From Aliarcobacter sp. (GTDB lineage: Bacteria > Campylobacterota > Campylobacteria > Campylobacterales > Arcobacteraceae): a stretch of DNA of 64,000 nt. The first letter of the stretch is position 1. Each line of letters begins with the position of its first letter. A program made the translations under genes and the position numbers. The notes below the pieces were generated by a model. That model was not told the origin of the DNA. It made no database searches and saw only the letters and a program-made list of their open reading frames with translations. The stretch spans positions 1 through 64,000 of the forward strand of contig JAQTXA010000003.1 of assembly GCA_028689025.1 (NCBI GenBank). The letters run 5' to 3'. This document shows, in pieces, positions 2,951-22,388 of this stretch.

Positions 2951-2996
2951 AAATATAAAATCCAAGTAAAATAAAACTTTTGCTTGGGTTATATTT
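2951..2996. terminator. Bidirectional terminator between purT and the convergent operon
   Basis: AAATATAAAATCCAAG (2951-2966) can pair with CTTGGGTTATATTT (2983-2996) with a one-base bulge. A-rich and T-rich flanks suit termination from both sides. The stem contains the stop codon (2989-2991) of the minus-strand gene. Confidence 0.7.
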
Positions 2997-4056: not shown

Positions 4057-4065
4057 TTTTATATC

Positions 4066-5103
4066 CTAGATACAATTTTTATCAGAACTTACACTATCAT
4101 CAACAATTTGCACCCAATTATTTTCAATTAATACTTTCATTACATCACCTGATATTTTTTTGTAAATAGTATCAATTTGAACCCAATCTTCTACTTTTTG
4201 TTTTATACTAAACTTATCATCTATTTTTAATACTCTTAATATTTTTCCATCTAAACTACTATTATCTCTAACATTTAAATTCTGTTTTTTTACTGTATAT
4301 AAACAACTAGAATTCATTTCATTTGTATTTTTTGCTACTAAAATAGGCTCTTTGGTTGGAACTTGCTCAAAAGCTTTTTTTATTGGGAACTCTTCTTTTA
4401 TCAAAGCCTTTACTTCTTCTTTTTTTATAGTTTTAGTTGTTTCTTTTTTCTCTTCAGGTTTTTGCGTTTTAATTAAATCACTAACAGAAATTCCATAATT
4501 ACTCAGATAAATTGTGTATCCATTTTCATCATCAAGTTTTTTATATAACTCTATACTTTTTGTTCTTGTATTTATATTTATAATTTTATGCTCAAGTATT
4601 GAATCACCTTCAACATATCGTCCTTCGATATTAGCACTTAATTCAGCACCTATCTCTTTTTTTGTTGCAGTTGCTGTTTCATCTTCAAGTTTTAAAACAA
4701 CATAATCTTTTCCATTAAAAGAGTACATACTTTTAATTTTTAAATCTTTTAATTTTTTTGTTCTTGTAAAATCTGTTGTAAGTTTTGCCATGTCATTTTG
4801 GTGAGTAAATACATATTTTTCATAATCTTCTTGAGAAAGTTTTGGTTCTTCTTTTATTAATGCCTTAGGTTGATTATTTACAATTCCACCAGTTGAATTA
4901 GGATCTTTTTTATTTTTTATTGTACTTACTTGTTCTTCTAAATAGTCCTTTTCAAGACCAGTAATTGCATTAAAGAACTCTTTTGATTGCTTATCTAAAA
5001 CATCTAATTTATCTGCATTTTGCATCTGATTTGAAATTGTCTCTTCTGCTTGTAAATTAAGTGCCATAAAAAATAGAAGTGTAATTATCTTTATTCTTTT
5101 CAT
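4066..5103 (-). CDS. Exported protein with C-terminal SH3-like (SH3b) domain
   Basis: A Sec signal peptide ('MKRIKIITLLFFMALNLQAEE') leads a 345-residue periplasmic or surface protein. The middle (about 30-250) is charged, has a coiled-coil-like start ('SKEFFNAITGLEKDYLEEQ') and a small beta-rich part. The C-terminal ~70 residues form a bacterial SH3 domain: 'LNVRDNSSLDGKILRVLKI' and 'DWVQIDTIYKKISGDVMKV'. Such domains bind peptidoglycan or peptides. It lies directly behind the last pilus-locus paralogue, so a role in anchoring the pilus machine to the cell wall is plausible. That role is inferred from position and domain. The function is otherwise unknown. Confidence 0.72.
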   Translation of the reverse strand: MKRIKIITLLFFMALNLQAEETISNQMQNADKLDVLDKQSKEFFNAITGLEKDYLEEQVSTIKNKKDPNSTGGIVNNQPKALIKEEPKLSQEDYEKYVFTHQNDMAKLTTDFTRTKKLKDLKIKSMYSFNGKDYVVLKLEDETATATKKEIGAELSANIEGRYVEGDSILEHKIININTRTKSIELYKKLDDENGYTIYLSNYGISVSDLIKTQKPEEKKETTKTIKKEEVKALIKEEFPIKKAFEQVPTKEPILVAKNTNEMNSSCLYTVKKQNLNVRDNSSLDGKILRVLKIDDKFSIKQKVEDWVQIDTIYKKISGDVMKVLIENNWVQIVDDSVSSDKNCI

Positions 5104-5121
5104 TTTTTCCCTTTTAAATTT

Positions 5122-7389
5122 TTATTTAAATATAAATTCATAATTAAATCCACCAATATATGTAGGATATTTTATATAAAACTTACTATTATTCAACCAT
5201 GTACCTGATGTCATAGTTGTAGGAGTTGTATTAGCTCCACCTTCAGAAACTAAATAATCTCTATTTATATCAAAAAGATTTGTATTAAATACTGGCAACA
5301 TAAATGTATTATCTTCTGAATTCGTTGTACTACTATAAGTTTGAACTCCCCAACAATACATTTGATTATCTGTATTTATTCCACACATAGAATTATTTGT
5401 ATCTTCAAGAACTTTAATACTTTTCCATAGCATACTATTTATTGTATTATTAAATGTTGTGTCAAATGTTGAAAAATAGTCACTAATTAACTGATTAGTT
5501 GAATTTACATAAACAACTATTCCTGTACTTGTTAAATCTATAGATAAAACATCTGTTTTATCTATTAGATATGTAATCTGAACTTTTTTATTTACTGGTT
5601 GCTCTATCTTATAATATTTATTATCACTTCCCAATGCAATTATTGCATGACGTCCACTTTGTATAGATTCAAAAGTTAAATCAGTAGGAAGATTAGAATT
5701 ACTTGTAGTTATTTTTGTAGGTTGACAAAGATTAAAAGAAGCACCTTCCCAAGATACACTACAAGTTGGCATATTTGCAATATCTGTATCCATACCCCAA
5801 ATATAAAGTTCCCTATCTGTTGATAATGCAAACATTTTTCTATATCCAGAGCTTAAAGTATTTGAAATATCTTTAAACTTTATTGTTGTGATATTTTCTG
5901 TTATTTTTTCAGGTACTTTATCTGTATTAATAGTGCTTGTAGTTGTACATTCTTGTCGATATTTAGTACATACCTGATGCCATGACCAATTATACCATTG
6001 CCAATCATAATTAGTACAAACATCTACGCAACTTGTACTACTACTAACATTAAAAGTAGGAGTACCATTTCCTGAAAATCCATTATTATTTGTATCTTCA
6101 TAACCCCATCTATAAATATCACCATCTTTTGAAAGGATTAACCAAAGTTGATTATTAGCAAATATTTTTGTTGCTTTTTTTGAATCAGTTGTTCCATCAA
6201 AATATGTACTTCGATAGAGCATTTCTCCATTTCTCGTTGTGTCCACTTGTGTAAATAGATTGCCAAAACTTTTATCTGAAGCACTAACTATTCCCCCACA
6301 ATAAAGTTCTCCATTAGTTGTAATCCCACAAGTTCCATTTTTTGTATTTGAAAACAGGTCTACAAATCTTGGTCTTAAAGGCGATGAAAAATAGTTTTGA
6401 GTATAAAAAGTTGTTAAGTCTTTTGAATCAGTCAAATCATTATCATAAATTTTTGCCCGTACTCTTACTAAAGTATTAACTACTGGTGTTTTACTACCTG
6501 TTGAGCCAGAGTTTTTTGTATATTCATCTATATCTATACTTGTAATTCTATTTTCATTATTTCCCCAAGTATAAATATCTCCATTTATTATCATTCCACC
6601 TGAGTTTTTCCCTATTTGAATTAAACCTAGTTGTGTATCTAATACTACATCTGGATTTTGTCTTACTATTGTATTTTCATTGATACCTATATAAGCATCC
6701 GCAGTATTTGTATTACTATTATTTTGTAAAATTGTTTGTCCAGCATAGGTAACATCTCTTATCATATCTTTAAATGCTGTATTAACAGTTTTGTCTGCAT
6801 TTATCATAGTTACACTTGAATCTACGATTAAATCTTTATCAACCGAAAATTTATAAACTCCACCTTCATACCAATGAAGAACACCATTTGTATCTAGATA
6901 ATATTTCCCTGCTGTTGCACTCACTGCAGTTGCTTTTACGGTAGTAATATCAGTTTTATTCGTATAAATAAATTTCTCTTTAGCAGATAAAATTATTTCA
7001 ATATCGCTATTATTTGTACTTAACGGTGCTTTTGTGTTTATTCTATATTTATTTGAGTAATAGTAATCGTATATATTTGATTTTAAATTATTATCCGTTG
7101 TTGTGAAACTTTTTAATTTATGTACATTTGTAGAAAAACTTATATTTCCTCCAAAATAGTTATTTGTACTAAAACTACTTGGAAGATAGCCTGTTGTAGT
7201 CTTTAAAGTTGAAAGGGTTGAGGGTTCACTACCTTTTTCTAAAATATATTTCTTATACTCAGTCGCAATTTCTTCTTCTTTTTCTATAAGTTTTTTTACT
7301 TTTGATAAAGTCAAAGAGTTAATGTAATCATCATTTGCGAAAATGTTTAATGCAAGAAAAAATAAAATTAGAAATCTTAATAAAAACAT
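5122..7389 (-). CDS. Secreted RCC1-repeat (beta-propeller) protein, predicted pilus-associated adhesin (755 aa)
   Basis: A signal peptide (1-18, ending 'LNIFAN') precedes a helical N-terminal module shared with three neighbouring proteins ('VKKLIEKEEEIATEYKKYIL', residues ~30-50). It continues with 'TTTGYLPSSFS', which recalls the N-terminal part of PilV minor pilins. From about residue 245, RCC1-type repeats occur: 'GDIYTWGNNENR', 'GELYCGG', 'GDIYRWGYEDTNN', 'RELYIWGMDTD', 'NQMYCWGVQ'. These suggest a beta-propeller. A Trp/Tyr-rich loop bounded by cysteines lies near residues 453-480. The C-terminus 'KYPTYIGGFNYEFIFK' matches the end of the 952-residue homologue at 13008-15866. A surface or pilus-tip adhesin is my inference. 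Confidence 0.75.
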   Translation of the reverse strand: MFLLRFLILFFLALNIFANDDYINSLTLSKVKKLIEKEEEIATEYKKYILEKGSEPSTLSTLKTTTGYLPSSFSTNNYFGGNISFSTNVHKLKSFTTTDNNLKSNIYDYYYSNKYRINTKAPLSTNNSDIEIILSAKEKFIYTNKTDITTVKATAVSATAGKYYLDTNGVLHWYEGGVYKFSVDKDLIVDSSVTMINADKTVNTAFKDMIRDVTYAGQTILQNNSNTNTADAYIGINENTIVRQNPDVVLDTQLGLIQIGKNSGGMIINGDIYTWGNNENRITSIDIDEYTKNSGSTGSKTPVVNTLVRVRAKIYDNDLTDSKDLTTFYTQNYFSSPLRPRFVDLFSNTKNGTCGITTNGELYCGGIVSASDKSFGNLFTQVDTTRNGEMLYRSTYFDGTTDSKKATKIFANNQLWLILSKDGDIYRWGYEDTNNNGFSGNGTPTFNVSSSTSCVDVCTNYDWQWYNWSWHQVCTKYRQECTTTSTINTDKVPEKITENITTIKFKDISNTLSSGYRKMFALSTDRELYIWGMDTDIANMPTCSVSWEGASFNLCQPTKITTSNSNLPTDLTFESIQSGRHAIIALGSDNKYYKIEQPVNKKVQITYLIDKTDVLSIDLTSTGIVVYVNSTNQLISDYFSTFDTTFNNTINSMLWKSIKVLEDTNNSMCGINTDNQMYCWGVQTYSSTTNSEDNTFMLPVFNTNLFDINRDYLVSEGGANTTPTTMTSGTWLNNSKFYIKYPTYIGGFNYEFIFK

Positions 7390-7880
7390 TATTTCACTTC
7401 CCTAGCTTTTGATACATAATCTACAAAATAGATACTATCATTTATCTCACTTTTTTTAATACTTCCAATATATGATAAAATTCCCTCTGCGGCTTGTAAA
7501 CCTTTTTCACTTTCGGCACTAACTTGAGTAACAATCAAATATCTATCAAGACACATTTTTTTTGAATCTAAATATTTTATTTCATAATCTAGAATTGACA
7601 TTCTTTGGAATATGTCTTTTACTTTTGTTTCAAGCTCTTCTTTTGATATATATTGTTTTTCTACACTCTCTGTTTTACTTTTAGATAATTCAACTTTACT
7701 TTTTAAATTATTGGTTTCTGTTCTTTTTTCTTGTAAAACAACTTCTAATTGCTCTTTCTCAAAAGCAATTTTATAATAGATTATTGTTTTATAAGCGAAA
7801 AATCCTAAAGTATAAACTCCTAGAATTGTTAATCCAACCCTACTAATATATGAAACTGTTTTATTTGCAATACTAATCAT
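7389..7880 (-). CDS. PilO/GspM-like inner-membrane pilus assembly protein
   Basis: The 163-residue protein has one N-terminal membrane helix (about residues 13-34, 'VGLTILGVYTLGFFAYKTI'). It then has a coiled coil (about 40-80, rich in Glu, Lys and Gln) and a short alpha/beta periplasmic domain. This is the plan of PilO/GspM-type proteins, which dimerise with PilN/GspL-type proteins under the secretin. Sequence similarity to a named family is not obvious, so the call rests on topology, size and position. It overlaps the preceding gene by four bases and its stop abuts the start of the RCC1 gene. Confidence 0.55.
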   Translation of the reverse strand: MISIANKTVSYISRVGLTILGVYTLGFFAYKTIIYYKIAFEKEQLEVVLQEKRTETNNLKSKVELSKSKTESVEKQYISKEELETKVKDIFQRMSILDYEIKYLDSKKMCLDRYLIVTQVSAESEKGLQAAEGILSYIGSIKKSEINDSIYFVDYVSKAREVK

Positions 7881-8632
7881 TTTGAAACCTCTTTATTAGT
7901 ACTAAGACAATCTGTTAATTCTTTATATTTCTTTTCACTAGTATTTAATATAAGTTGTTGTCTTTTTGCTAATTGCGTCTCTATTTTTATCTCTTGATTT
8001 ACATTATCTAAAGATTGTTGTTCAAATAATTTGGCAGTTGCTAAATCTAAACCAAAAAACATTGTCCATAAAATAAATCCTACTAAAAATATAGAATAAA
8101 ACATTTTCGTAGAGTGTGATTTAAAAGTATCTAATTCATTAAGTGGTTTTACTAAATCACTAATTTCACCTAAAGATTTTGCAACTACTTCATTTTTTTC
8201 ATTTTTTGTATTTTGTTTTAGAATATTTTCAATAGCACTTTTATATTTTGAATTTATTACATAATAGATATTTTCAATAGCTCCACCACTTGAAAGCATG
8301 GCAATATGTTTTGTAATTAATATTGATTTAATCATATCATCTGTAATAAAATTTTGATTTATTTTTGCAGAATATACTGTTTTATGATTAAATAAAATTA
8401 CATACTCATTTTCTGCTATATGTATCAAAAATTGATTTCTACCTAAATGCTTTTTTGACAGAAGATTTAATGAAAAAATTTCTTCTGTAGTTTCATATCT
8501 TGAAAGAAAAACACTATATTTCTTAAAAGAGTTGTATGTGAACATATTTTGTGCAGATGCAAACTCATCATTTAAATAAAATGTTTCATTTAGCTCTTTT
8601 GTTGCAAAATCTGTTATTACTAATCGTACCAT
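7877..8632 (-). CDS. GspL/PilN/BfpC-like bitopic assembly protein
   Basis: This 251-residue protein has a cytosolic N-terminal region of about 170 residues, one membrane helix (about 180-200, 'MFYSIFLVGFILWTMFFGLD') and a short periplasmic coiled coil. That is the architecture of GspL or of BfpC/TcpD, where the cytosolic part binds the assembly ATPase. The overlap with the ATPase gene (13 bases) and with the PilO-like gene (4 bases) fits a joint inner-membrane platform. No ATP-binding motif is seen. Assignment is by topology and context. Confidence 0.55.
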   Translation of the reverse strand: MVRLVITDFATKELNETFYLNDEFASAQNMFTYNSFKKYSVFLSRYETTEEIFSLNLLSKKHLGRNQFLIHIAENEYVILFNHKTVYSAKINQNFITDDMIKSILITKHIAMLSSGGAIENIYYVINSKYKSAIENILKQNTKNEKNEVVAKSLGEISDLVKPLNELDTFKSHSTKMFYSIFLVGFILWTMFFGLDLATAKLFEQQSLDNVNQEIKIETQLAKRQQLILNTSEKKYKELTDCLSTNKEVSK

Positions 8633-10311
8633 ACTTCCTCCCCTCTAATAATTGCAATAGCATCATCTTTTGTTATAAGTCCTTCATGATATTGAGCCAT
8701 ACAAGCTTTTTCTACAGTCATATATTCAGCAGGATTTTCAAAATCTCCACCATGCCCTATTTTAAACCTTACAACCTCAGCAATAGGAACCCTATCTTTA
8801 AATCCACTATTATTACACTCATCACAACCAACTTTTTTAAATCCACCTTCTCCATCTTCTGTTTTACAAAATTTACATAATTTTCTAACTAATCTTTGAG
8901 ATACAATTCCTCTTAAGTTATCGATAATATCACCTTCATTAATTCCTAATGAACTTGTCATCCTTGAAACTGTCGCAGGGGCTGAATTCGTATGCATTGT
9001 AGAGAAAACCAACTGCCCTAAGTTTGATGCATTTACAAGTTGAGATGCAGTTTGTGGTTCCCTTGTTTCCCCAATTAGAATAATATTTGAATCTTGTCTT
9101 AAAATATCAACAACTGCTTCAGGGTAACCATATTTAAACTCTTCACTTGCACTTGCAAACTCAGATAAATCGATTTGGAAGAATGATTCATCAACATACT
9201 CAACGGGGTCTTCAATAGTAATAACATACTGTTGTTGTTTTGCAAGTTGTTGTAAAAGAGCATACATTAAGTGCGTTTTTCCAGATCCAACTTGCCCTGT
9301 AATTAATATCATTCCATTTGCATATTTTGTTAAATTTGATAAGATATCAACTGTTTCTTGTGGATAATTTAATCCTCTTAAATTATGTGAAACAACTCCT
9401 CGTCCACCAATCATCCTCATAACTAAAGAGAAATTTAATTTTGAATTTATAAGTCCAAGTCTGAATTTAATACTTTTTTTACCATATTCATAATTTATAA
9501 CCCCATTAATTGATTCATAATCTGAATCTTCTTGGTCTGCCATGGTTACCAATCTTCTTTTTAATGTTTTAGCAATTGTAATTGGCATTGTTCCCATATC
9601 AACTTTTATACCATCAATTCTAAACCATAAAGTTGCATATCTACTTGTTTTTTGAATATGTATATCTGAAGCTCCAAGAAGAATAGCTTGCCCCATCATT
9701 TTGTCAAAATATTTATTTATCTCTTCATCATTTTCAGTATCATTATTTGAATTAAAAATAATCTCTCTATCTTCACCAAAAACAGAAGATAAAACTCCTT
9801 CACCTAAAACAACTATTTTTGTAAAATAGAATTTACTCAAAACATCAAAATCTAAGTTTACAACATCTCTAATACCCAAAACTTTATTTTTGATTTTTTT
9901 GTCTTCCAAAGTTATAATATACATAGTCGTACATAACTCTAACTTCTTTTCATCTAATTGAAATGATGTATCTTGGTAATATTTTGACAACTCACTATAA
10001 CTTGCATAATATTCGTATCCAAGGGATCTAACAAATTCTGCATATTTCTCTTCATTAGCAATTAAATCTCCATATCCACCTTTTAATTGATATTTATCTT
10101 TAATAACATCTTCAATTAATATTGCTAACTGAGTATCTACATCCTCGTTTTTACCTATAAACTCAAAAAATTTATGTTTTAGCTTTTCAAAAATAGCCAT
10201 ATAATCTATTTTTTTTGATTCAACTCTTTTTGTTTGATTCTCTTTTTTCCTTTTTTTTAAAAAAGAAAATTTTGGAACATTTTGAAATGTTGTAAGAAGT
10301 TTTTTAATCAT
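8620..10311 (-). CDS. Type IV pilus/type II secretion assembly ATPase (GspE/PilB family)
   Basis: This hexameric cytosolic motor powers pilin assembly. The 563 residues carry the full GspE core: 'ATLWFRIDGIK' (linker), 'GQVGSGKTHLMYALL' (Walker A, about residues 337-351), 'YVITIEDPVEY' (Asp box), 'ILIGETREPQTA' (Walker B) and 'FSTMHTNSA' (His box). A zinc-type CxxC...CxxC pair ('CKFC', 'CDEC') lies near residues 478-500, typical of extension ATPases and absent from PilT. The Walker B follow-on reads GETREPQTA, where GEIRDxETA is usual. It is the only such ATPase in the window, with no PilT-like retraction motor nearby. Confidence 0.92.
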   Translation of the reverse strand: MIKKLLTTFQNVPKFSFLKKRKKENQTKRVESKKIDYMAIFEKLKHKFFEFIGKNEDVDTQLAILIEDVIKDKYQLKGGYGDLIANEEKYAEFVRSLGYEYYASYSELSKYYQDTSFQLDEKKLELCTTMYIITLEDKKIKNKVLGIRDVVNLDFDVLSKFYFTKIVVLGEGVLSSVFGEDREIIFNSNNDTENDEEINKYFDKMMGQAILLGASDIHIQKTSRYATLWFRIDGIKVDMGTMPITIAKTLKRRLVTMADQEDSDYESINGVINYEYGKKSIKFRLGLINSKLNFSLVMRMIGGRGVVSHNLRGLNYPQETVDILSNLTKYANGMILITGQVGSGKTHLMYALLQQLAKQQQYVITIEDPVEYVDESFFQIDLSEFASASEEFKYGYPEAVVDILRQDSNIILIGETREPQTASQLVNASNLGQLVFSTMHTNSAPATVSRMTSSLGINEGDIIDNLRGIVSQRLVRKLCKFCKTEDGEGGFKKVGCDECNNSGFKDRVPIAEVVRFKIGHGGDFENPAEYMTVEKACMAQYHEGLITKDDAIAIIRGEEVWYD

Positions 10312-10322
10312 TTTTTATCTTC

Positions 10323-11339
10323 TTACTTATATAGTGTTTTAAAGGTAAATGTACTAATTACTAAATTAATAATATCAGAACCAATAATAACTGTAACTAG
10401 CATAGCAACCATCCAAAACATAAATTTCCACTGTAAAACCATATAATTTATATTCTTTTCATACATAGTGTCACAAGTTTGATATAAAGATTTTGTAACT
10501 TCTGAGAAACTTGTTTTACTAAGTTCTGACAGTTTTATATCTGCTGTTATAATTGCAGGAAAATTATACTTTTCAAATACAATAAACAGTTTTTTATTTC
10601 TATTTATAATATCTGCTAACTCTGCAAAAAATGGTCTTAATCCTTCTTTAAAATAATCCTTTGATAAAATTAGTGATGTTTTATGAAAAGAGATACCAGC
10701 ACTCAACATTCCATTTAAAATTCTAAACATAAATCTTCCATCTGAAAAAGCTTGTGTTTTAAAAACTTTATAAAGCCACGCTGGTTTATACTTTTCACAA
10801 TATACATATCCAAAAAAAAGAAATGCTGTTACAAAAATGGATAAACCTAATCCTGCATATGCAAAATCATAAGTAAAATATTTAGGTACCCCTAAAAATT
10901 GTTCCACATCTGGATTTAATTTTCGTAAATGTACTAAATCTTTTTGTAGCATGTCAAGATATATAATAAGTCCATAAAAAGTACCTATTACAATACCTAA
11001 TGGCATAAATATTGGATTTATCATTTTTAATAATAGATTTGAATTTGCTTTTTTAAATGATAATACAAGTTTTAATCCATCAATTGTACTTGTACTATTT
11101 ACTACCAAACTAAACTGGAAATTATTTAAAAATTTGTGTTTATGTAAGATTGCCTCAAGTTTATGTTTTCCCATCTCCATATCTTTTATTGCAGCTATTA
11201 ATCTTTTTTTAAAATTTGTTTCCCTAGTAATTTGTTCACTATATAATAATAGAGCTCTTCTTGTATTAGAGCCATTTTCTAATTTTGTAACAAGATAATC
11301 CAATAAAAACTGCTCATACGGATCAGCGAACATACTCAT
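10323..11339 (-). CDS. Inner-membrane platform protein (GspF/PilC family)
   Basis: This is the polytopic core on which pilins are assembled. At 338 residues it is a little shorter than PilC/GspF (about 400) and close to BfpE/TcpE of type IVb pili. Three hydrophobic segments are visible, near residues 105-128, 158-180 and 303-330. Two related cytosolic helical domains flank them: 'MEMGKHKLEAILHKHKF' in the first, and 'FMFRILNGMLSAGISFHKT' followed by 'DIINRNKKLFIVFEK' in the second. It sits 11 bases downstream of neither an overlap nor a promoter-sized gap, between the secretin and the ATPase, the usual order in type IVb pilus operons. Confidence 0.85.
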   Translation of the reverse strand: MSMFADPYEQFLLDYLVTKLENGSNTRRALLLYSEQITRETNFKKRLIAAIKDMEMGKHKLEAILHKHKFLNNFQFSLVVNSTSTIDGLKLVLSFKKANSNLLLKMINPIFMPLGIVIGTFYGLIIYLDMLQKDLVHLRKLNPDVEQFLGVPKYFTYDFAYAGLGLSIFVTAFLFFGYVYCEKYKPAWLYKVFKTQAFSDGRFMFRILNGMLSAGISFHKTSLILSKDYFKEGLRPFFAELADIINRNKKLFIVFEKYNFPAIITADIKLSELSKTSFSEVTKSLYQTCDTMYEKNINYMVLQWKFMFWMVAMLVTVIIGSDIINLVISTFTFKTLYK

Positions 11340-11341
11340 AA

Positions 11342-12997
11342 TTAAAAGCCTTTGATATTTTTAAGAGTAACCACATACACAATTTCTCTTCTAATATAAG
11401 ATTTTGAATCAGATCCACCTATTGCAAATCCTTCTATAGGAAGAACTCCTTGGTAATTTTTTGCATCATCATGAACAATAATAGAGCCAACAATTGATGT
11501 TTCTCCAAGTCTTACTTCCCTTGAAATATTATAACTCTGGTCATTATATTGAGGAAGTTTTATCATTGTTCCATCAACACTAACTTCTCCAAATGCAATA
11601 AGTTTTTTAATACTAGGAGCTATATTTAGAAATATTTTATCTCTAGATATTTTTGCCATTGCAGTTATTGATGTTCCTTCTTTTAAAGTATTTACCGTTA
11701 CATCTGATGTTCTTACATTTGTATCTGCATCAATTGTTGTTTGGATTTTCTCTACATAATCTGTATTATCTGTAATAGATTGTACTGTTGGTATATTATT
11801 TTTCAGTACTAACGTATTTTTACTATAATTTAATATTTTTCCTATTTCATTATTTGCAGTTGCAGTTAGTTGAAGTAATCTTGTTGCATTGTCACTTGTA
11901 AAACTAAATGCGCCACCTGTTCCTACACTTTTAACAACTCCGGCTCCTGTGTTTGTTTGCCTATCATCAGATATTGTTCCAATTCCATATTGTCTATTTT
12001 TATTTAAAATAAGTTCAATTCTTTCAAATTCTACTACTGCTTCTTTGGCAAAAGATAATTCATACGCCTTTGCAATAGTTCTCACTGCATTTTCTACTGA
12101 AGTTGTAGATTTTAAAAATATCAATCCACTTGATTTATCTATGTGATATGTTGATATTTTATCCGTTGATATTATATTCTTAAGCATTTTATCTAGTTCA
12201 TCATAGAGTGCAATTTGAGAATTATTTTCTACTTTTGCATCACCTGCTGATTGTTGTGATGTTTGACTTGAAGATTTCATATCTAATAATGGGATATTTA
12301 ATTCAATCACTATATCTTTGTATCTTGAAATATTTATAACTTCTTTATCATAATCGATATCAACAAAAACATCTTTCGCATGAGATAAAGAGTTTAATGC
12401 ATCTTTTAAATTTTTTGAACTTATGCTTACAATACTATTTTGAAAATCATCCCTATTATCTATATAACTTCCAATATTAACTTCATATCCAGATTCTGCA
12501 GTTATAAGTTTTATTAACTCCTCAACAGAAATTTGACCCTCAAGTATAAAAGGAATATGCTCAATTGATTGTTTTTTTGTTTCGCTTGTACTTAAAAGTT
12601 GAACTAAATAAATAGAACCATTCTTTTTAATAAAAAGTTCTTTATCTAATACAGCATTTAAATACTGATTTAACTCAGCAAAATTATGTATTTTTATTCT
12701 ACTTTTTGGGATTAAAATATCACTACTTTTTAAGTAATAGAAATTACCATCTATAATTTCCATCTCTTTTAATATTTCACCTAATGATTTATCTTCTAAA
12801 ATACTAATAAACTCTTTCTTAACTTCTTTTTCATCAACTAATGAACTAGCATAAGACTCTTTAATGCCTTTATAATCTTTTTTATCAAGAGATTTCTTTG
12901 TACTATCAATCATTTCTTCATGATAACTTTTTGAACTGCATCCTGTTAAAATTACTGCTAAAAGAGTAAAAGATAAAAGATTTTTAAATTTTTTCAA
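11342..12997 (-). CDS. Outer-membrane secretin lipoprotein (BfpB/TcpC/PilN-type)
   Basis: Secretins form the gated outer-membrane ring through which the pilus passes. A lipobox ('AVILTGC', Cys20) marks it as a lipoprotein, the form typical of type IVb pili. Residues 150-240 and 270-320 look like N-domains ('GQISVEELIKLITAESGYEV', 'STYHIDKSSGLIFLKSTTSV'). The C-terminal ~220 residues are the secretin barrel region, with 'VEFERIELILNKNRQYGIG', 'GTSITAMAKIS', and an ending 'REIVYVVTLKNIKGF'. At 551 residues it matches BfpB-like secretins. It follows the 952-residue RCC1 gene after 10 bases. Confidence 0.85.
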   Translation of the reverse strand: MKKFKNLLSFTLLAVILTGCSSKSYHEEMIDSTKKSLDKKDYKGIKESYASSLVDEKEVKKEFISILEDKSLGEILKEMEIIDGNFYYLKSSDILIPKSRIKIHNFAELNQYLNAVLDKELFIKKNGSIYLVQLLSTSETKKQSIEHIPFILEGQISVEELIKLITAESGYEVNIGSYIDNRDDFQNSIVSISSKNLKDALNSLSHAKDVFVDIDYDKEVINISRYKDIVIELNIPLLDMKSSSQTSQQSAGDAKVENNSQIALYDELDKMLKNIISTDKISTYHIDKSSGLIFLKSTTSVENAVRTIAKAYELSFAKEAVVEFERIELILNKNRQYGIGTISDDRQTNTGAGVVKSVGTGGAFSFTSDNATRLLQLTATANNEIGKILNYSKNTLVLKNNIPTVQSITDNTDYVEKIQTTIDADTNVRTSDVTVNTLKEGTSITAMAKISRDKIFLNIAPSIKKLIAFGEVSVDGTMIKLPQYNDQSYNISREVRLGETSIVGSIIVHDDAKNYQGVLPIEGFAIGGSDSKSYIRREIVYVVTLKNIKGF

Positions 12998-13007
12998 ATA
13001 TTATTCC

Positions 13008-15866
13008 TTATTTAAAATAAAATGGATAATCAAATCCACCAATGTACGTTGGATATTTTAAAAATAAATTCCCACTATTATTATATTTATCAAAAGACAT
13101 CTGAGTTGTCTTGTCACTTTCTTGAGAAATAAATAATTTATTTATAGTGCTTATTTTACTCACATCATATAAAGATGTACTTAAAATTGGGATACTTCTA
13201 CCAACATTTCCCCAACAATACATCTGTGACGCTGTTGTAAATCCTGTCATTCCACAAATAAAAGACTTACTTGTCTCTTTAACTCTTACTCGAACATTAT
13301 CAATTCCCCATGATTCATCACCAATAGTCTGTCCATACGACCAAGAAGTATACCCCGTATCTGTACTCACTCCATTTCTAACCCTAAATACAACTTTTAG
13401 GTTACCACTACTATCAAGTTTTCCCTTAAACTTATATGTATACTTTTCATCATTATTTTTTGAAAATTTTATGCCATATAGTTCTGAACTTTTGTTATTA
13501 CAAATTCCATCTGATGTATAATTTGTACCTAAATTAAGGGTATAAATACCTGTATCATTTGTATCTTTAGCTTCATCATGACAATCATGAATAAATCCAT
13601 CTTCAGATACTAAAACATCATTTAATAAAATTTGAAATCTCTCCATATCCCATGAGTCGATTTCATAAAAATCAAACTCTATTTCAACTTCATTATTTGC
13701 ATAGGTACTTCCGAAAATATATGTTTTTTCTAATGCCTGATACCCTAAAAGAATTCTACCTAAAATTCTTGTTGGGTTAACTCTTTCGGTAACAGGTGAA
13801 ATTGATGTATTTGGTGATGATTCTGTAGCAACATATGTTGGTGCAGTTACGCTACTTGTTTGATTTTTAAATGCTGTATCACTATATGTTTTTAATTTCC
13901 AAGTATCCACACCACTTTCAAAATTATCTGATTGTTCAGTTTTTATTGTATCCAATTGATAAATTGATACATTTGTAAAATTTGCATATCCAGTAGTGCT
14001 TGATATTGTATTTAATTCAGCCAAAGCTGTATCAAAAATTGCACTATCTGTTGAATTACAATTAGTTCCATCACTCTCTTTACAAGAAATAAAAGAATCA
14101 CTACCTTTTAATTCTAAATTTTTATTGGCATATGTATATAATGTACTTGCTCCGTTGTCATATAAAGAAGCACTTATAGCATTACTTGGAATATCTGAAT
14201 TTATAGAACTTACTGATAGATTAGCATTTGTTCTGTAAAATATCCCATCACTACCTTTTAAAATAAAACTTTTGCTATTAGTAAAAATAGCATCTGGATT
14301 AAATGTTGATAGTGATACTAAGGTTGGTTCAGAATAAGTTGTTCCATCTGGTAGTTCTCCCCAAATATAAAATAAATTATTTGAGTCTATTGCACCAAAA
14401 GTTTTTATATCTCTTAAAGCAAATATTTTTTTAAAAACTTGACCATTATTTTTAACTTGCACAGGTGTCAATTGAATTATAAATTTATCTGTACTTCCAA
14501 TTCCTAAAGCTCCTAAATAATTTCTTCCTATAGTATAAATTTTCCCGGCATCAGAAAGAACAGCGATAACATCTTCTACCATTGCAATCTCTTTTAAATA
14601 TATTCCATTTGTTTTATCTTTAAAATAGTTATTTCTAACTAGTATTGATGTTTCAATTGTAGATGTTATATTTTCATAATTATTTGTAATTTGTCCATTG
14701 CAATATAAATCACCACCTTCTTTAGTTGTTGTTCCCACAAAAATAGGAGAAATGGCACATACATTCGTACTATTCATTGCCATTTTTTGAAATTTTACTC
14801 TATATGGATTGTTGTACCATTTAATGCCATTTTGTGTTGAGTCGTTTATCTGAACTTTTAACATCACAGGGGTATTTACAAAATATGGCTTTAAAGTTGT
14901 ATCTAACTGTCCATAAGTTTCTATTCCTGCTTTTTTATATTGATTATTTCCCCAACAAAATATATCTCCATTTGCAAGCATACAACCACCATCACGTCTA
15001 AGCATCAAATCTTTTGAATTTGGAATATAACTAAGTAATTTTTGTTCTATTGATTGACCATCTAATGATACAGGTTCATTTGTTGCTCCACCTGTTGTTT
15101 CACTTGCACTCCAAAGACTTGTGCCATCTTTTTTTAATCCAATAAAATACTTTTCATACCATGAAGTACCTATTTTAACATAAGCTTTTGCCCCAATTTC
15201 AGCTATTATATATTGTAAATCTTCATCATTTTCAGTATAAATTGGTTCTTCTTGATAAACTTCAAAACTTCTATTTTTTGGAATGTCTGTTTTACAATAC
15301 TTATACGTAAGTTTTTCATTTTCTAACTCATAAAAAGGCTTTCCACTTGTACATGTTTGATTTGGAAATTTTATATCTTTAGGAGTTGTTTCATTTAAAA
15401 CTGAAACTATCTCTTTTTGAATATCATTATATAAAACTTGAGAACCTAAAGCTAACTTATCTTTTGTGATATTTATAGGTGGAATTGTATTTACTCTAAA
15501 AACTTTATTGGTATAAAAATTATATAGGTAATTATATTCACTGTTGTAATTAGTTGTCGTCTCAATGGCACCTTTTATAAATGCACTATTATTTGAATCA
15601 AAAAAAACTACTATATTTGATTTACTTAATGGATTTGTTTTATTAAAATTTGTTCCTAAATATTCTGCTGTTTCTAGTTTTGTCCAGTCTAAGCTATTAT
15701 CACTATTTTTAGGAATTGTTGCTGTTTGTAAAATATATTTATTTAAAGCAAGTGAAATATATTCTTCCTTTTGTATTACATCTTTAACAGCATTCATTAA
15801 AGATATATTTTCACTAGAAGAAAAAGCAAAATTTATATAAATTAAAATTAGAATTAGAATTTTCAT
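13008..15866 (-). CDS. Secreted RCC1-repeat protein with inserted lectin-like domain, predicted pilus adhesin (952 aa)
   Basis: A signal peptide ('MKILILILIYINFAFSSS') is followed by the helical module shared with three neighbours ('VKDVIQKEEYISLALNKYIL'). RCC1-type repeats occur between about residues 290 and 540: 'GDIFCWGNNQYKKAG', 'GDLYCNGQ', 'GKIYTIGRNYLGALGIG' and 'NLFYIWGELPDG'. One more lies near the C-terminus ('SQMYCWGNVG'). Between them, about residues 655-870, is a beta-rich domain beginning 'DNFESGVDTWKL', with 'VEIEFDFYEIDSWDMERF' and ending 'SWGIDNVRVRV', which looks like a jelly-roll carbohydrate-binding fold. The C-terminus 'KYPTYIGGFDYPFYFK' matches the 755-residue homologue. 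Predicted adhesin; the ligand is unknown. Confidence 0.75.
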   Translation of the reverse strand: MKILILILIYINFAFSSSENISLMNAVKDVIQKEEYISLALNKYILQTATIPKNSDNSLDWTKLETAEYLGTNFNKTNPLSKSNIVVFFDSNNSAFIKGAIETTTNYNSEYNYLYNFYTNKVFRVNTIPPINITKDKLALGSQVLYNDIQKEIVSVLNETTPKDIKFPNQTCTSGKPFYELENEKLTYKYCKTDIPKNRSFEVYQEEPIYTENDEDLQYIIAEIGAKAYVKIGTSWYEKYFIGLKKDGTSLWSASETTGGATNEPVSLDGQSIEQKLLSYIPNSKDLMLRRDGGCMLANGDIFCWGNNQYKKAGIETYGQLDTTLKPYFVNTPVMLKVQINDSTQNGIKWYNNPYRVKFQKMAMNSTNVCAISPIFVGTTTKEGGDLYCNGQITNNYENITSTIETSILVRNNYFKDKTNGIYLKEIAMVEDVIAVLSDAGKIYTIGRNYLGALGIGSTDKFIIQLTPVQVKNNGQVFKKIFALRDIKTFGAIDSNNLFYIWGELPDGTTYSEPTLVSLSTFNPDAIFTNSKSFILKGSDGIFYRTNANLSVSSINSDIPSNAISASLYDNGASTLYTYANKNLELKGSDSFISCKESDGTNCNSTDSAIFDTALAELNTISSTTGYANFTNVSIYQLDTIKTEQSDNFESGVDTWKLKTYSDTAFKNQTSSVTAPTYVATESSPNTSISPVTERVNPTRILGRILLGYQALEKTYIFGSTYANNEVEIEFDFYEIDSWDMERFQILLNDVLVSEDGFIHDCHDEAKDTNDTGIYTLNLGTNYTSDGICNNKSSELYGIKFSKNNDEKYTYKFKGKLDSSGNLKVVFRVRNGVSTDTGYTSWSYGQTIGDESWGIDNVRVRVKETSKSFICGMTGFTTASQMYCWGNVGRSIPILSTSLYDVSKISTINKLFISQESDKTTQMSFDKYNNSGNLFLKYPTYIGGFDYPFYFK

Positions 15867-16619
15867 TTAATTCACCTTCAAAATTTGCAAATTATTTGAA
15901 GAATCATTTATTAACTTCACATATTTTACACCATCTATAAATATATATGCACCAACTGATAAATCTTGTAATTTTGTATCGGTTAATAAACTATTTGTAC
16001 TTAAAATGACATTACCTTTATTAAAATCTTTTTTACTATATTCAATCCATTGTAAACTAGCGTTATACCATCTTATAGATTTTTTATTATTACTACAATA
16101 AGTTCCTGCAACTGGCGAACTACAATCTTTTTGTATAGTCTTATCGTTTTTTAATAAATCAAAAATTGTTTTTGCTTCATTGCTTTGTAACTTAATTTCA
16201 ACATAAGAATCTATTATTTTAACTTTATTATTTACAGTATCTTCTACAGAATATACAGAAGTATAATTTCTATATAAATCTCTATTATAGAGTTGCACTA
16301 TATAATCTTGAGTGTTGTTATATTCATCTTTTGTAATTAAATATTTTAATTTTAATGTTTTTGTATTTGAAAAATCTATATCTATACCCATTCTATTTTC
16401 TACTGAAAAATTACTTCCTAAATAACTATCATTAATCAAATTAGTCATTGTAGGTAATGCAAACTCTGTTAAAATATATCTTTCAAAATTCTTTGCAATA
16501 CTTTCTTCTCTTTCTATTAGATTTTGAACATATAGAGTATTTTGTTTTTGAGCTGTTAAATCTTCATTTGCACTTAAAGAACTTATAAAAAGAAGTGTTG
16601 TAATTATTCTTTTTATCAT
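15867..16619 (-). CDS. Secreted protein, short member of the pilus-locus paralogous family (250 aa)
   Basis: No named family is recognised. A signal peptide ('MIKRIITTLLFISSLSANE') precedes the shared module 'VQNLIEREESIAKNFERYIL'. This is followed by 'PTMTNLINDSYLGSNFS', as in the two RCC1 proteins, but the chain ends without propeller repeats. A 'DCSSPVAGTYCS' cysteine pair lies at about residues 170-181, followed by 'IRWYNASLQWIEY'. The C-terminal 'VGAYIFIDGVKYVKL' resembles 'KGALIYDIDGVKYVKT' at the end of the next gene's product. It overlaps the 16616-17335 gene by four bases and its stop abuts the 952-residue gene start. A minor pilus subunit or adhesin scaffold is an inference. Confidence 0.65.
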   Translation of the reverse strand: MIKRIITTLLFISSLSANEDLTAQKQNTLYVQNLIEREESIAKNFERYILTEFALPTMTNLINDSYLGSNFSVENRMGIDIDFSNTKTLKLKYLITKDEYNNTQDYIVQLYNRDLYRNYTSVYSVEDTVNNKVKIIDSYVEIKLQSNEAKTIFDLLKNDKTIQKDCSSPVAGTYCSNNKKSIRWYNASLQWIEYSKKDFNKGNVILSTNSLLTDTKLQDLSVGAYIFIDGVKYVKLINDSSNNLQILKVN

Positions 16620-17335
16620 TTTAATGCCTCAAGAGTTGTTGTTGTTTTCACATACTTTACACCATCTATATCATAAATCAAAGCTCCCTTAGGAATTGAT
16701 TTAAATACATCTTCAGTTGTGTACTTTACACTATTATTGGTAACAACAATAGGACCTGTTTTAAATTTATCTACATGATAACTCATTAAATAACTGGCAA
16801 TTGTAGTGGGTGTTACTCCTATTGCATCTATATAAATATGGTTATCTCTTTTACAAGCCTTGTCTGAATTTGAAGATGAACAATCTTTAATTTCATTACC
16901 ACTATTTAATTTTATTAAATCATATAGATGTTTTGCAAAACTATCTTCTAAGATAAAATAAACTGCACCGTCTCTTACATAAGTTCTTTTTCTAAAGGTG
17001 TCACTCTCATATAAACTTTTTATACTTAAATCTGCTTTTAAAATATCTCCTAAAGCATAGTTTATTTTTGGTAAATCAGCTGTCAAAGTTGTAAGATTAA
17101 CTTTATCATCTATTGTTACAAAAGCGGTTATTGTTCCACCCATTAAAGTTGTAATAGTTCCTACCGTTGGAGGAAGTTTATAATTACTTAAAATATACTC
17201 TTCATAAGTTCTTGCAAATGATTCTTCATATTGAACTATATTTTTTATATCTTGTAAAATTATCTGTCTCTCTTGAAAAGTTTCACTTTGCAAAAAATTA
17301 AAACTTATTATTAAAAATAAAAAACACCTAATCAT
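16616..17335 (-). CDS. Secreted protein, short member of the pilus-locus paralogous family (239 aa)
   Basis: The signal peptide 'MIRCFLFLIISFNFLQSE' leads into the family module 'IKNIVQYEESFARTYEEYIL' and 'YKLPPTVGTITTLMG'. A cysteine pair ('DCSSSNSDKAC', about residues 152-162) occupies the same place as in the 250-residue paralogue. The C-terminus 'ALIYDIDGVKYVKT' is shared with it. No propeller repeats are present. Four-base overlaps with both neighbours show tight translational coupling. The two short paralogues probably arose by duplication and may act as minor subunits. Their function is not known. Confidence 0.65.
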   Translation of the reverse strand: MIRCFLFLIISFNFLQSETFQERQIILQDIKNIVQYEESFARTYEEYILSNYKLPPTVGTITTLMGGTITAFVTIDDKVNLTTLTADLPKINYALGDILKADLSIKSLYESDTFRKRTYVRDGAVYFILEDSFAKHLYDLIKLNSGNEIKDCSSSNSDKACKRDNHIYIDAIGVTPTTIASYLMSYHVDKFKTGPIVVTNNSVKYTTEDVFKSIPKGALIYDIDGVKYVKTTTTLEALK

Positions 17336-18099
17336 AATACATCTTTTAATTGATAATATAATTTTGTTTCAATAGCTGTTTCATTTAAGTAGAGTTTCTC
17401 TTTGATTTTTGATTTGAAATAGGCTTTTTTCCTAGTTTTCAATACTTCTACATCCAAAACTGTATTAGCTGAAACTTCAGCTGGTGTTCTAAAATCTTGA
17501 TACATTTTGCCATAGGGTATAAATTTATCTTCTGGAGTATAATCAGCCATCAAGGTTGTCATAGTTGCTGTTACTGTTTGAGCAGAATATAAAATCTCAA
17601 TTTCTAAAAAATGGATAGCTCTATTTACACTCTTTTCAATTTCAGCATCATTTAAAACTAGGTTTTTATTATTTCCACCAACATCAAAAGTATATTTATT
17701 TGTTGTTGTATCAGCTGTAATTGATGATGCATCTGTAATATTTTTTAATTTTGCTTTTAACGCTAAAAGTTTTAATTTTTCATCTTGGCTTATTTCAAAA
17801 TTTCCTTCACTATTTACAAGCTCTTTATTTGTTAAATTACTATCTTTATTTCTATCTAATAATAAAACTTTTTCCCAATTTTCACCTTTTGGTAAATTGG
17901 CAATGATTACATCTCTTGTAATGTCTTGGGGATTTTTGTTGTATTGTTTGGCTAAAAGGGTTTTGATTTCTGAGATTATTTCATAATTTTCTTGGATTTG
18001 TTTTGCTTCTTGGACATCTGAATAAGATTTATACATAGCCGATGCTGAAAATATAGCTGTAACAATAAGAGCAGATGATAGCCATATATTTCCAAACAT
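17332..18099 (-). CDS. Pilin-like protein, PilV/minor-pilin type, no prepilin leader (255 aa)
   Basis: The N-terminus 'MFGNIWLSSALIVTAIFSAS' is a membrane helix starting almost at residue 1. It is followed by an amphipathic helix ('VQEAKQIQENYEIISEIKTL') and 'AKQYNKNPQDITRDVIIANL', the pattern of type IVb pilin alpha-1 and PilV. No charged leader with a Gly/Ala cleavage site and no Glu5 are seen. The remaining ~190 residues are mixed alpha/beta with no cysteine. AAGGG lies about 10 bases before the ATG, so the start is credible. The gene begins after the hairpin that follows the 18213-18890 pilin gene and overlaps the next gene by four bases. Confidence 0.6.
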   Translation of the reverse strand: MFGNIWLSSALIVTAIFSASAMYKSYSDVQEAKQIQENYEIISEIKTLLAKQYNKNPQDITRDVIIANLPKGENWEKVLLLDRNKDSNLTNKELVNSEGNFEISQDEKLKLLALKAKLKNITDASSITADTTTNKYTFDVGGNNKNLVLNDAEIEKSVNRAIHFLEIEILYSAQTVTATMTTLMADYTPEDKFIPYGKMYQDFRTPAEVSANTVLDVEVLKTRKKAYFKSKIKEKLYLNETAIETKLYYQLKDVL

Positions 18100-18185
18100 T
18101 AATAAAAACCCTTCAAAAAAAGAAACTTAAAATAAAAAGTAAATACTGTCAGATTTTAGTACTTAGTTTTTAGTTTGCAATTTAT

Positions 18186-18217
18186 AATAATATTTAGGCA
18201 AAAGCCTAAATATTATT
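18186..18217 (-). promoter_or_regulatory. 14-bp hairpin over the stop codon of the pilin-like gene
   Basis: AATAATATTTAGGC (18186-18199) and GCCTAAATATTATT (18204-18217) are perfect inverted repeats with an AAAA/TTTT loop. On the minus strand it lies at the 3' end of the 225-residue pilin gene and includes its TAA. No long T-tract follows, so partial termination or 3'-end stabilisation is more likely than full termination. Confidence 0.7.
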
Positions 18218-18890
18218 TAATTACCTCATCAGCACCAAAATCTTTAAAGTAAATAATAAATTTACCATCACTTATACTTTCACTTCCTGTTGTTGTAACT
18301 GGAGTAGAATATCCAGGTGTTCTTTTCTCTAAATCTGTCCCTGAACTATTTTGCACAGTTGCAGGTGCTGTAGCTGATACTGCATGTCTATCAATATATG
18401 CAACTGCTTCTAAATCTTTTGCAATTTGAGCTTCTAAAAATGCTTTATTTGTTTTAAGACTTCCATCTGCCAAATCAACGAAAAGACCTGGTGTTGTTCC
18501 AACTGTAGTAGCAACAAGAGAAATTTTCATAGCACTTTTATTTGCTGTTCCGGTTGTAGTTTCAGATTTACCACCAAAAGAAATTGCATTATAAACATTA
18601 GCATTTGCATTAGTAGAAGTTGTTAATTGACTATTTATTTGTTCTGCAAAATAAGAAAGAGTCGCTAACCCTTTTAAATTTTTCGCTGCATCAGGATCTG
18701 TACCAGCAGAAGTTTGAATATGTGCAGATTTTGCTGCAATTTTAACACCATCTTTAATATTATTAATCTCTGTAATAATACTTCCTTTTTGAGCAACTCC
18801 CTCGATTTTATCACCTGTTCCACCAAATGTTTGGAACATATAAATCATTGCTGCAACTACTACGATTATCATCGCTATCAACTGTGGCAT
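18213..18890 (-). CDS. Pilin-like protein, candidate major pilin, no prepilin leader (225 aa)
   Basis: 'MPQLIAMIIVVVAAMIYMFQ' is a hydrophobic N-terminal helix beginning at residue 3. It is followed by 'EGVAQKGSIITEINNIKDGV' and 'KIAAKSAHIQTS', which match the second half of the type IVb pilin alpha-1 helix. The rest is rich in Ala, Thr, Ser and Gly and contains no cysteine. Prepilins carry a charged leader, a cleavage Gly/Ala and Glu5; none of these is present. AAGGA 7 bases before the ATG (with A-rich spacing) supports the start. It has its own good -10 box, and a hairpin follows, which suggests higher expression than the downstream assembly genes. Pilin identity is inferred from helix pattern and context. 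Confidence 0.65.
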   Translation of the reverse strand: MPQLIAMIIVVVAAMIYMFQTFGGTGDKIEGVAQKGSIITEINNIKDGVKIAAKSAHIQTSAGTDPDAAKNLKGLATLSYFAEQINSQLTTSTNANANVYNAISFGGKSETTTGTANKSAMKISLVATTVGTTPGLFVDLADGSLKTNKAFLEAQIAKDLEAVAYIDRHAVSATAPATVQNSSGTDLEKRTPGYSTPVTTTGSESISDGKFIIYFKDFGADEVIK

Positions 18891-18924
18891 TTTTCTATCC
18901 TTTTTGTTAAATTAAATTTTTTCT

Positions 18925-18944
18925 GACCTAAGGTCTTAATTATA
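18925..18944 (-). promoter_or_regulatory. Promoter of the 225-aa pilin-like gene with palindrome at the start site
   Basis: On the minus strand TATAAT (18944-18939) is preceded by TGTTG. Seven bases further the transcript would begin in GACCTTAGGTC (18935-18925), an inverted repeat of 5-base arms around one base. The palindrome could be an operator or a 5' hairpin. An AAGGA ribosome site follows before the ATG. Confidence 0.55.
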
Positions 18945-18974
18945 CAACAACTTTTGTTTAGTTGCACCAATTTT

Positions 18975-19568
18975 CTACTTAAATACTATACAAACAAAAA
19001 GTCCATCATTGTTTGTACCATCTTGCTTAAAATCTTCTTTGCCAACGGTTGATGAATCATAAGATTTTCCCGTTGTTTGAAAAGTACCAAAAAGCATCTT
19101 CTCACAAAATTCTCTACCTGAAAAACTTTCAGAAAAGGTACCTCTACTTTTTAAAGCAGAATTTTTAGTCATATCAACTAACAACTTGTAAGAGCTATTA
19201 TCATCCTTATTTGGTATTAATTGCCAAATAACTGTACTAGAAGGGAAAGTCAATTTTGAAGTATTTAAACTCCCTGTTACATTATCAGCAACACCATCAG
19301 CTGTAACTGTTGTATCACAATCTGTTGCTGATAATGTATCTTTGATATTGCCTGACAATATTCCTGAACATGATAATTTCTGAAAATTCACACTTGTCAA
19401 ATCTCCACCTGATTGAACAAAGGTATTTACAAATCCATCAACCATTAAAAACATAGACTTCATTCTATCAAGTTCAGCTGTGATTGCACTATCATCTGCT
19501 TCATATCTTGTTAACAAAATAATAGTTGCTGCAACAACAGCAATTATAGAAGATACAAGATATGGCAT
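18975..19568 (-). CDS. Pilin-like protein, first gene of the pilus operon, no prepilin leader (197 aa)
   Basis: The N-terminus 'MPYLVSSIIAVVAATIILLT' has the same layout as the 225-residue neighbour: Met-Pro, then a membrane helix, then 'DDSAITAELDRMKSMFLMVD', an amphipathic helix. No leader or Glu5 is seen. Four cysteines are present, two early ('LSCSG', 'ATDCD') and two late ('GREFCEKM' and the terminal 'LFVCIVFK'). The late pair would suit the C-terminal disulphide of type IV pilins. AAGGA is spaced 6 bases from the ATG. A minor or alternative pilin is likely. It lies at the head of the locus, divergent from the diguanylate cyclase gene. Confidence 0.62.
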   Translation of the reverse strand: MPYLVSSIIAVVAATIILLTRYEADDSAITAELDRMKSMFLMVDGFVNTFVQSGGDLTSVNFQKLSCSGILSGNIKDTLSATDCDTTVTADGVADNVTGSLNTSKLTFPSSTVIWQLIPNKDDNSSYKLLVDMTKNSALKSRGTFSESFSGREFCEKMLFGTFQTTGKSYDSSTVGKEDFKQDGTNNDGLFVCIVFK

Positions 19569-19635: not shown

Positions 19636-19687
19636 ACTTAAAATAAAAATTATCATTTAATTATTTTTGCTAATAACTATTTATTTT

Positions 19688-19713
19688 GCTATAATTTATT
19701 ATTACTTAATAGG
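19688..19713 (+). promoter_or_regulatory. Promoter and ribosome site that fix the start of the diguanylate cyclase gene
   Basis: TGCTATAAT puts a perfect -10 (TATAAT) at 19690-19695, so transcription should begin near 19702. AGGA at 19711-19713 with its preceding base lies about 9-10 bases before TTG at 19724. The in-frame TTG at 19667 would be upstream of the transcript and is therefore excluded. Confidence 0.65.
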
Positions 19714-19723
19714 ATTTATTATT

Positions 19724-22375: not shown

Positions 22376-22388
22376 GGTAATAAAACTA

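Follow-up and report, generated by a model that had tools for sequence, protein, structure and literature searches.

Leaderless pilin-like proteins in a conserved, apparently undescribed type IVb-like operon of Arcobacteraceae

Can a type IV pilus be built from subunits that are made without a leader peptide? Cutting off the leader with a prepilin peptidase is generally regarded as part of making type IV filaments, with Glu5 as a driver of subunit docking (PMC10191384, PMC5207764), and the definition of a type 4 pilin includes the class III signal peptide (PMC10191384). The question is raised by a minus-strand operon of 14 genes (2989-19568) in a 64-kb window, by which we mean the whole stretch of DNA analysed here, from contig 32 of an Arcobacteraceae draft genome (G000; 2.7 Mb, 95% complete). 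A sequence-only reading of this DNA had described a type IVb-like pilus locus with unusual parts, among them pilins lacking a leader. Our analysis across related genomes makes it fairly probable that the operon encodes a type IVb-like pilus of the Arcobacteraceae, whose pilins are made without a leader and whose fibre carries beta-propeller proteins. Pilins that have neither leader nor Glu5 run counter to the accepted type 4 pilin definition (PMC10191384; PMC6668835) and are the main interest of the locus; next to them, the propeller proteins are a less remarkable addition.

Pilin-like proteins without leader peptides

In the product of pil2, the second gene of the operon, a hydrophobic helix follows directly after the residues MPQ. 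All 18 genomes compared have a Shine-Dalgarno-like motif before Met1 of pil2, and in none of them does an ATG, GTG or TTG codon lie between Met1 and the preceding in-frame stop, which stands a median of 6.5 codons upstream. An upstream start codon is likewise absent from pil1 in 17 of 18 genomes and from pil3 in 17 of 19, that is, from 52 of the 55 pilin genes overall. Protein-level conservation starts exactly at Met1. Residues 1-48 of pil2 have a mean identity of 89%, against 45% for the remainder, and four-fold degenerate sites in the same segment differ at 40%; the conservation of the pil2 N-terminus therefore acts on the protein level.

Profile scans and a motif check found no match to a prepilin-type signal in the operon pilins, neither a type IVb leader nor a class III signal peptide. 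The pil1 and pil2 sequences examined have no class III motif and no lysine or arginine before the helix, unlike most of their Sec-exported neighbours, in which a positive n-region is usual. Acidic residues begin at position 23 in pil1 and are absent from the first 25 residues of pil2; neither protein has Glu5. By sequence comparison of 18-19 genomes, the claim that pil1 and pil2 lack leaders is confirmed. Pilin finders that seek the class III signal miss genes of this type in annotation.

The sequence alone would be compatible with a leader read from a start other than ATG, GTG or TTG, or through a frameshift, and cut by a stand-alone peptidase, and some of the upstream frames are open for 10-26 codons. 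Such a hidden leader is nevertheless highly improbable: the frame upstream is closed by a stop after a median of 5-7 codons and shows no conservation, the Shine-Dalgarno motifs sit at Met1, and a prepilin cleavage motif is lacking.

Residue 2 is proline in 19 of 19 pil2 sequences and proline, alanine or glycine in 19 of 19 pil1 sequences, which permits removal of the initiator methionine; it is never one of these in pil3. Judging from this residue, Met1 of pil1 and pil2 is probably removed by methionine aminopeptidase. We see the chances as evenly balanced that the operon makes a type IV filament whose subunits bypass the prepilin peptidase, with the N-terminus set by the start codon and methionine removal, an N-terminal proline on pil2, and docking without Glu5. 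An N-terminal proline is a secondary amine, as N-methylphenylalanine is.

Organization and conservation of the operon

The operon runs in the order pil1, pil2, pil3, sec1, sec2, prop2, secretin, platform, ATPase, imA, imB, prop1, SH3 protein and a 14th gene (Table 1). Open reading frames, strand and overlaps were as previously reported; the run of genes earlier placed at 4066-19568 is real, and its last member, the 14th gene, had been missed. From pil3 onward, the median gaps between genes are -13 to +18 bases. The only spaced pairs are pil1-pil2 (median gap 85 bases) and pil2-pil3 (about 110 bases).

A survey of related genomes, suggested by the sequence-only reading, recovered the same gene set. 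The whole 14-gene order is kept in 18 other Arcobacteraceae genomes (loci L035-L049, L051, L052 and L093), and two further loci, L050 and L056, are partial operons cut by contig ends; the shared order is therefore far beyond chance. The 14th gene closes the operon in every carrier whose sequence extends that far. The machine proteins are well kept, platform identity across carriers being 71-95% with the distant locus L053 left out. In a class-wide sample of 397 genomes, in which a rare outside carrier could be missed, a pil2 profile gave 14 matches, all of them in Arcobacteraceae. A scan of genome contigs matched only close relatives, the nearest named ones being Aliarcobacter, Poseidonibacter lekithochrous and Arcobacter vandammei.

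Two of the 18 whole-order genomes have broken genes, namely L048, whose platform gene holds an inserted gene, and L039 (G018), whose ATPase gene, from 11181, is split into two reading frames. At L114 (3166-4368; G008), a 400-residue gene resembling an IS256-type transposase breaks up the platform gene, and the operon is therefore probably dead in that species; the split ATPase is a second sign of the system being dispensable. Two divergent cyclic di-GMP genes (PAS-GGDEF and FIST-GGDEF-EAL) adjoin the operon in the window at 19667-25181. GGDEF/EAL genes also stand beside the L053 system, and most other carriers have different neighbours.

Table 1. Genes of the operon, in order of transcription, and the pil2 stem-loop
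Feature	Position	Strand	Basis
pil1, leaderless pilin-like protein, likely minor pilin	18975-19568	-	starts MPY with Shine-Dalgarno motif; related to pil2
pil2, leaderless pilin, likely major subunit	18213-18890	-	no upstream start in 18/18; predicted helix and beta head
Stem-loop starting at pil2 stop codon, TAATATTTAGGC-TTTT-GCCTAAATATTA	18188-18215	-	RNAfold z -5.5
pil3, leaderless bitopic protein, pilin-like N-terminal helix	17332-18099	-	no profile relation to pil2
sec1, Sec-exported, N-domain alone	16616-17335	-	signal-peptide-like start, two invariant Cys; hhalign 99.5%
sec2, Sec-exported, N-domain alone	15867-16619	-	signal-peptide-like start, Cys and hhalign as sec1
prop2, Sec-exported, N-domain and RCC1 repeats	13008-15866	-	RCC1 30 bits vs cut-off 21.7
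Secretin lipoprotein	11342-12997	-	MshL model; BfpB; Vibrio plasmid secretin
GspF-like platform	10323-11339	-	T2SSF in 17/19 homologues, best E 8.9e-6
GspE/PilB-type assembly ATPase	8620-10311	-	T2SSE E 3.8e-65; conserved in all carriers
imA, bitopic inner-membrane protein, large cytoplasmic part	7877-8632	-	no family match
imB, bitopic inner-membrane protein, periplasmic coiled coil	7389-7880	-	no family match
prop1, Sec-exported, N-domain (~1-250) and RCC1 propeller (~253-755)	5122-7389	-	RCC1_2 36.4 bits vs cut-off 22
Sec-exported protein, C-terminal SH3-like domain	4066-5103	-	SH3_3 E 1e-4, below curated cut-off; alignment
14th operon gene	2989-4056	-	no Pfam match, no known family; 9 bases after SH3 gene

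Pilin identity and subunit roles

Of the three proteins earlier called pilin-like, pil1 and pil2 are related to each other (hhalign 92%, E 6e-7). Most members of both end in a DGx[FIV]x motif, which leadered pilins of sister systems likewise show at their ends, and the pil1 head has two invariant cysteines. The AlphaFold2 model of pil2 (predicted local distance difference test score 76.5) consists of a helix of 53 residues with one break (2-54), followed by a beta-containing head that ends in a strand. A second look with VIA placed two structures of the Clostridioides difficile type IV pilin PilA1 first (Z 6.2 and 6.0; unrelated chains at most 3.3), a match that supports a pilin fold for the model, short of proof. 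Residues ~82-95 of pil3, DRNKDSNLTNKEL, resemble an EF-hand calcium loop, and this feature is seen in many pil3 homologues, not in all.

In 17 of 18 genomes, the stop codon of pil2 is directly followed by a stem-loop, with z-scores of -3.2 to -8.4 against 60 mononucleotide shuffles per genome. Its arms vary between genomes yet still pair; no T-run follows it in the window. Such a hairpin would fit attenuation or mRNA protection giving an excess of pil2, as is usual for a major subunit. Four features make pil2 the likely major subunit, namely an N-terminus that hardly varies, a variable head, a predicted fold like that of a pilin, and the hairpin; pil1 is likely a minor pilin.

One may ask whether pil1-pil3 are instead small anchored scaffold proteins, any fibre being made of canonical prepilins encoded elsewhere. 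G000 does have three prepilin-type N-termini outside the operon, two of them over the family cut-off, and the pilin fold of pil2 is only modestly supported. In both genomes inspected, however, a canonical prepilin of the same kind adjoins operon-unrelated genes and a CtsE/GspE-like machine is also present, which makes competence pseudopilins the likelier reading of these prepilins. Since pil2 has the helix, head and conservation pattern of a pilin, and none of the operons holds a leadered one, a scaffold role is quite improbable.

Assembly machine, motors and prepilin peptidases

The core parts named in the sequence-only reading, an assembly ATPase, a platform and a secretin lipoprotein, were borne out by profile searches (Table 1), and the operon unites ATPase, platform and pilins in one cluster, as a type IVb pilus requires. 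The secretin matches the MshL model with an E of 6e-11, but at 42 bits against a cut-off of 250, and neither the PilN nor the MshL model of NCBIfam matches it above the cut-off. Its best PDB match in a profile search is BfpB, the type IVb secretin of enteropathogenic Escherichia coli (E 6e-4), and it aligns over 241 columns (hhalign 96%) with a Vibrio plasmid secretin in the PilN position, the locus of which also holds pilO2, a TcpQ-like gene and a type 4 major pilin. The BfpB and Vibrio matches place the machine, by its sequence, nearest to type IVb pili, in agreement with the earlier assignment. Other Msh models had no match over cut-off among the ten operon proteins scanned, and among the scanned proteins there was no match to GspG or to the GspD model, both of which a type II secretion system would be expected to give.

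From position and topology, imA may have a GspL/PilM-like role and imB a GspM/PilO-like one. Pfam scans of all imA members gave chance matches alone, so that a GspL/PilM or BfpC role is put forward tentatively; hhalign found no relation of imA or imB to sister-system or PilO2 proteins, and PDB profile searches with pil2 and imA as queries returned nothing useful.

As noted previously, the operon contains no prepilin peptidase, PilT-like motor or shufflon. Genome-wide, the T2SSE members of G000 are the operon ATPase, a CtsE/GspE-like protein, TadA and one sub-threshold match; this survey of the 95% complete draft found no recognisable PilT. The genome does encode two prepilin peptidases, a stand-alone one of 265 residues and one in a Tad locus, and the type IVb model allows the peptidase to be a loner (PMC6668835). 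In several genomes (loci L069, L075, L077, L083, L086 and L088), the stand-alone peptidase frame has ~164-179 residues, as against 265 in others, and may have lost the methylase part.

The lack of a recognisable PilT, together with several Sec-exported operon proteins and fast-diverging propellers, could also suit a secretion machine, in which pil1-pil3 would make up a short pseudopilus in the periplasm and drive the prop proteins and sec1/sec2 out through the secretin, like a type II system or the toxin-coregulated pilus (TCP) with TcpF. TCP likewise has no retraction ATPase; it makes pili as well as secreting TcpF, and it retracts all the same (PMC5207764). We think it unlikely that this operon serves secretion in place of an extended pilus. 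The strong pil2-specific hairpin and the separate spacing of pil2 suggest that it is made in excess, its variable head beside an invariant helix suggests exposure to the outside, and the secretin is nearest to pilus secretins. Together, these features argue indirectly for an extended fibre.

Secreted family and propellers

The sequence-only reading had described four related secreted proteins with propellers. The kinship stands, as sec1 and sec2 each correspond to the domain with which prop1 and prop2 begin (hhalign 99.5%); the propellers are confined to prop1 and prop2. With repeats over cut-off and a propeller fold (Foldseek E 6e-12; VIA Z 21.5 to UVR8 and ~16 to PLL lectins), prop1 qualifies as an RCC1-type beta-propeller. 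Both prop proteins share a strongly conserved C-terminal YPTYIGGF motif, which falls within the aligned propeller and therefore probably forms the strand that closes the ring. Across carriers, identity is 27-50% for prop1 and 35-64% for prop2, a fast divergence as expected of surface binding proteins, and a lectin-like binding role of the modelled propeller is plausible. The protein assigned an SH3 domain has only a weak match to SH3_3, under the curated cut-off.

It was also considered whether sec1/sec2 and prop1/prop2 could be modular pilins, the prop1 model having a long N-terminal helix. The idea is somewhat disfavoured, because their starts are ordinary and signal-peptide-like. No relation between sec1/sec2 and pil3 was found with hhalign.

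A model for assembly

In the pilus reading that we favour, translation of pil2, as the major subunit, and pil1, as a minor one, would yield proteins that open with the hydrophobic alpha-1 helix. They would enter the inner membrane so that the head faces the periplasm, and would probably lose Met1 to methionine aminopeptidase. With its one GspE-type ATPase and the GspF platform, the machine would lift the subunits into a fibre, which would exit via the lipoprotein secretin. On or through this fibre, sec1, sec2, prop1 and prop2 would be delivered, with the RCC1 propellers as putative binding heads at its tip. That the propellers are displayed adhesins was proposed at the outset, and the proposal is helped by their fold and fast divergence.

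Several observations weigh against this model. Without a positive N-terminal leader, the positive-inside rule does not give an N-in topology. At least one prepilin peptidase is present in 29 of 29 genomes checked, though both of those in G000 lie outside the operon; its genomic absence therefore cannot serve as a test of independence. The third pilin-like protein, pil3, is unrelated to pil2 by profile (hhalign 0.3%) and unproven as a pilin. A Foldseek search of the pil2 model against the PDB gave no match under an E of 1, and a Z of 6 makes its likeness to PilA1 modest. Finally, hhalign found no profile link of pil2 or pil1 to the one leadered sister pilin compared.

Comparison with known systems

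Among open-access papers on leaderless pilins, on RCC1 proteins with type IV pili and on Arcobacter pili, we found no description of this system. The suggestion that it is undescribed holds in this sense, and the operon is best read as apparently a conserved, undescribed variant of type IVb-like pili.

A sister system, L053, belongs to the same family: platform and secretin are 32% identical, and its pilins are leaderless and also begin MPLLIA. More distant systems, at L054, L055 and on a Caminibacter plasmid, have canonical prepilins, such as MKKGFSLVELVIVI, and the four sister prepilins tested are at or above the cut-off of the prepilin cleavage/methylation model. One genome (G042) carries both L053 and L055. 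These leadered sisters carry homologues of the secretin, platform and ATPase in a comparable arrangement, along with SH3-like Sec-exported proteins and the C-terminal DGx pilin motif; they differ from the Arcobacteraceae operon in their canonical leaders with Glu5, and no propeller protein was seen in L054 or L055. The most economical reading of these sequences would place the loss of the leader on the branch that gave rise to the Arcobacteraceae operon. A lineage that dropped leader and Glu5 beside sisters that keep both poses directly the question of what leader, peptidase and Glu5 are for. The Caminibacter locus (L125) is a related locus for a type IVb-like pilus with leadered pilins. It is carried by the 92 kb plasmid NZ_CP040940.1 of Caminibacter pacificus, with a lytic transglycosylase and an ATP-binding protein as neighbours, and its pilus may be a conjugation pilus.

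With the type IVb pili (Bfp, TCP and colonization factor antigen III, the R64 thin pilus and plasmid PilN-PilS loci), the operon shares a single cluster of lipoprotein secretin, platform, one ATPase, bitopic proteins and several pilin-like proteins, and like TCP it has no PilT (PMC5207764). Unlike them, it has pilins without leader or Glu5 and neither peptidase nor shufflon, and it adds the four-member Sec-exported family, two members with RCC1 propellers, and the 14th gene. The mannose-sensitive haemagglutinin pilus resembles it in the weak MshL match of the secretin and in that MSH loci, too, lack a peptidase (PMC6668835). It differs in its gene set; here, there is no MshA-type prepilin, and the secretin falls far under the model cut-off. 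By description, the Sec-exported proteins can also be likened to PilY1/PilC and TcpF/CofJ, which are Sec-exported or secreted non-pilin partners of pili. PilY1, too, has a beta-propeller domain, but the propeller found here is of the RCC1 type, and the N-domain that bears it also occurs by itself in sec1 and sec2.

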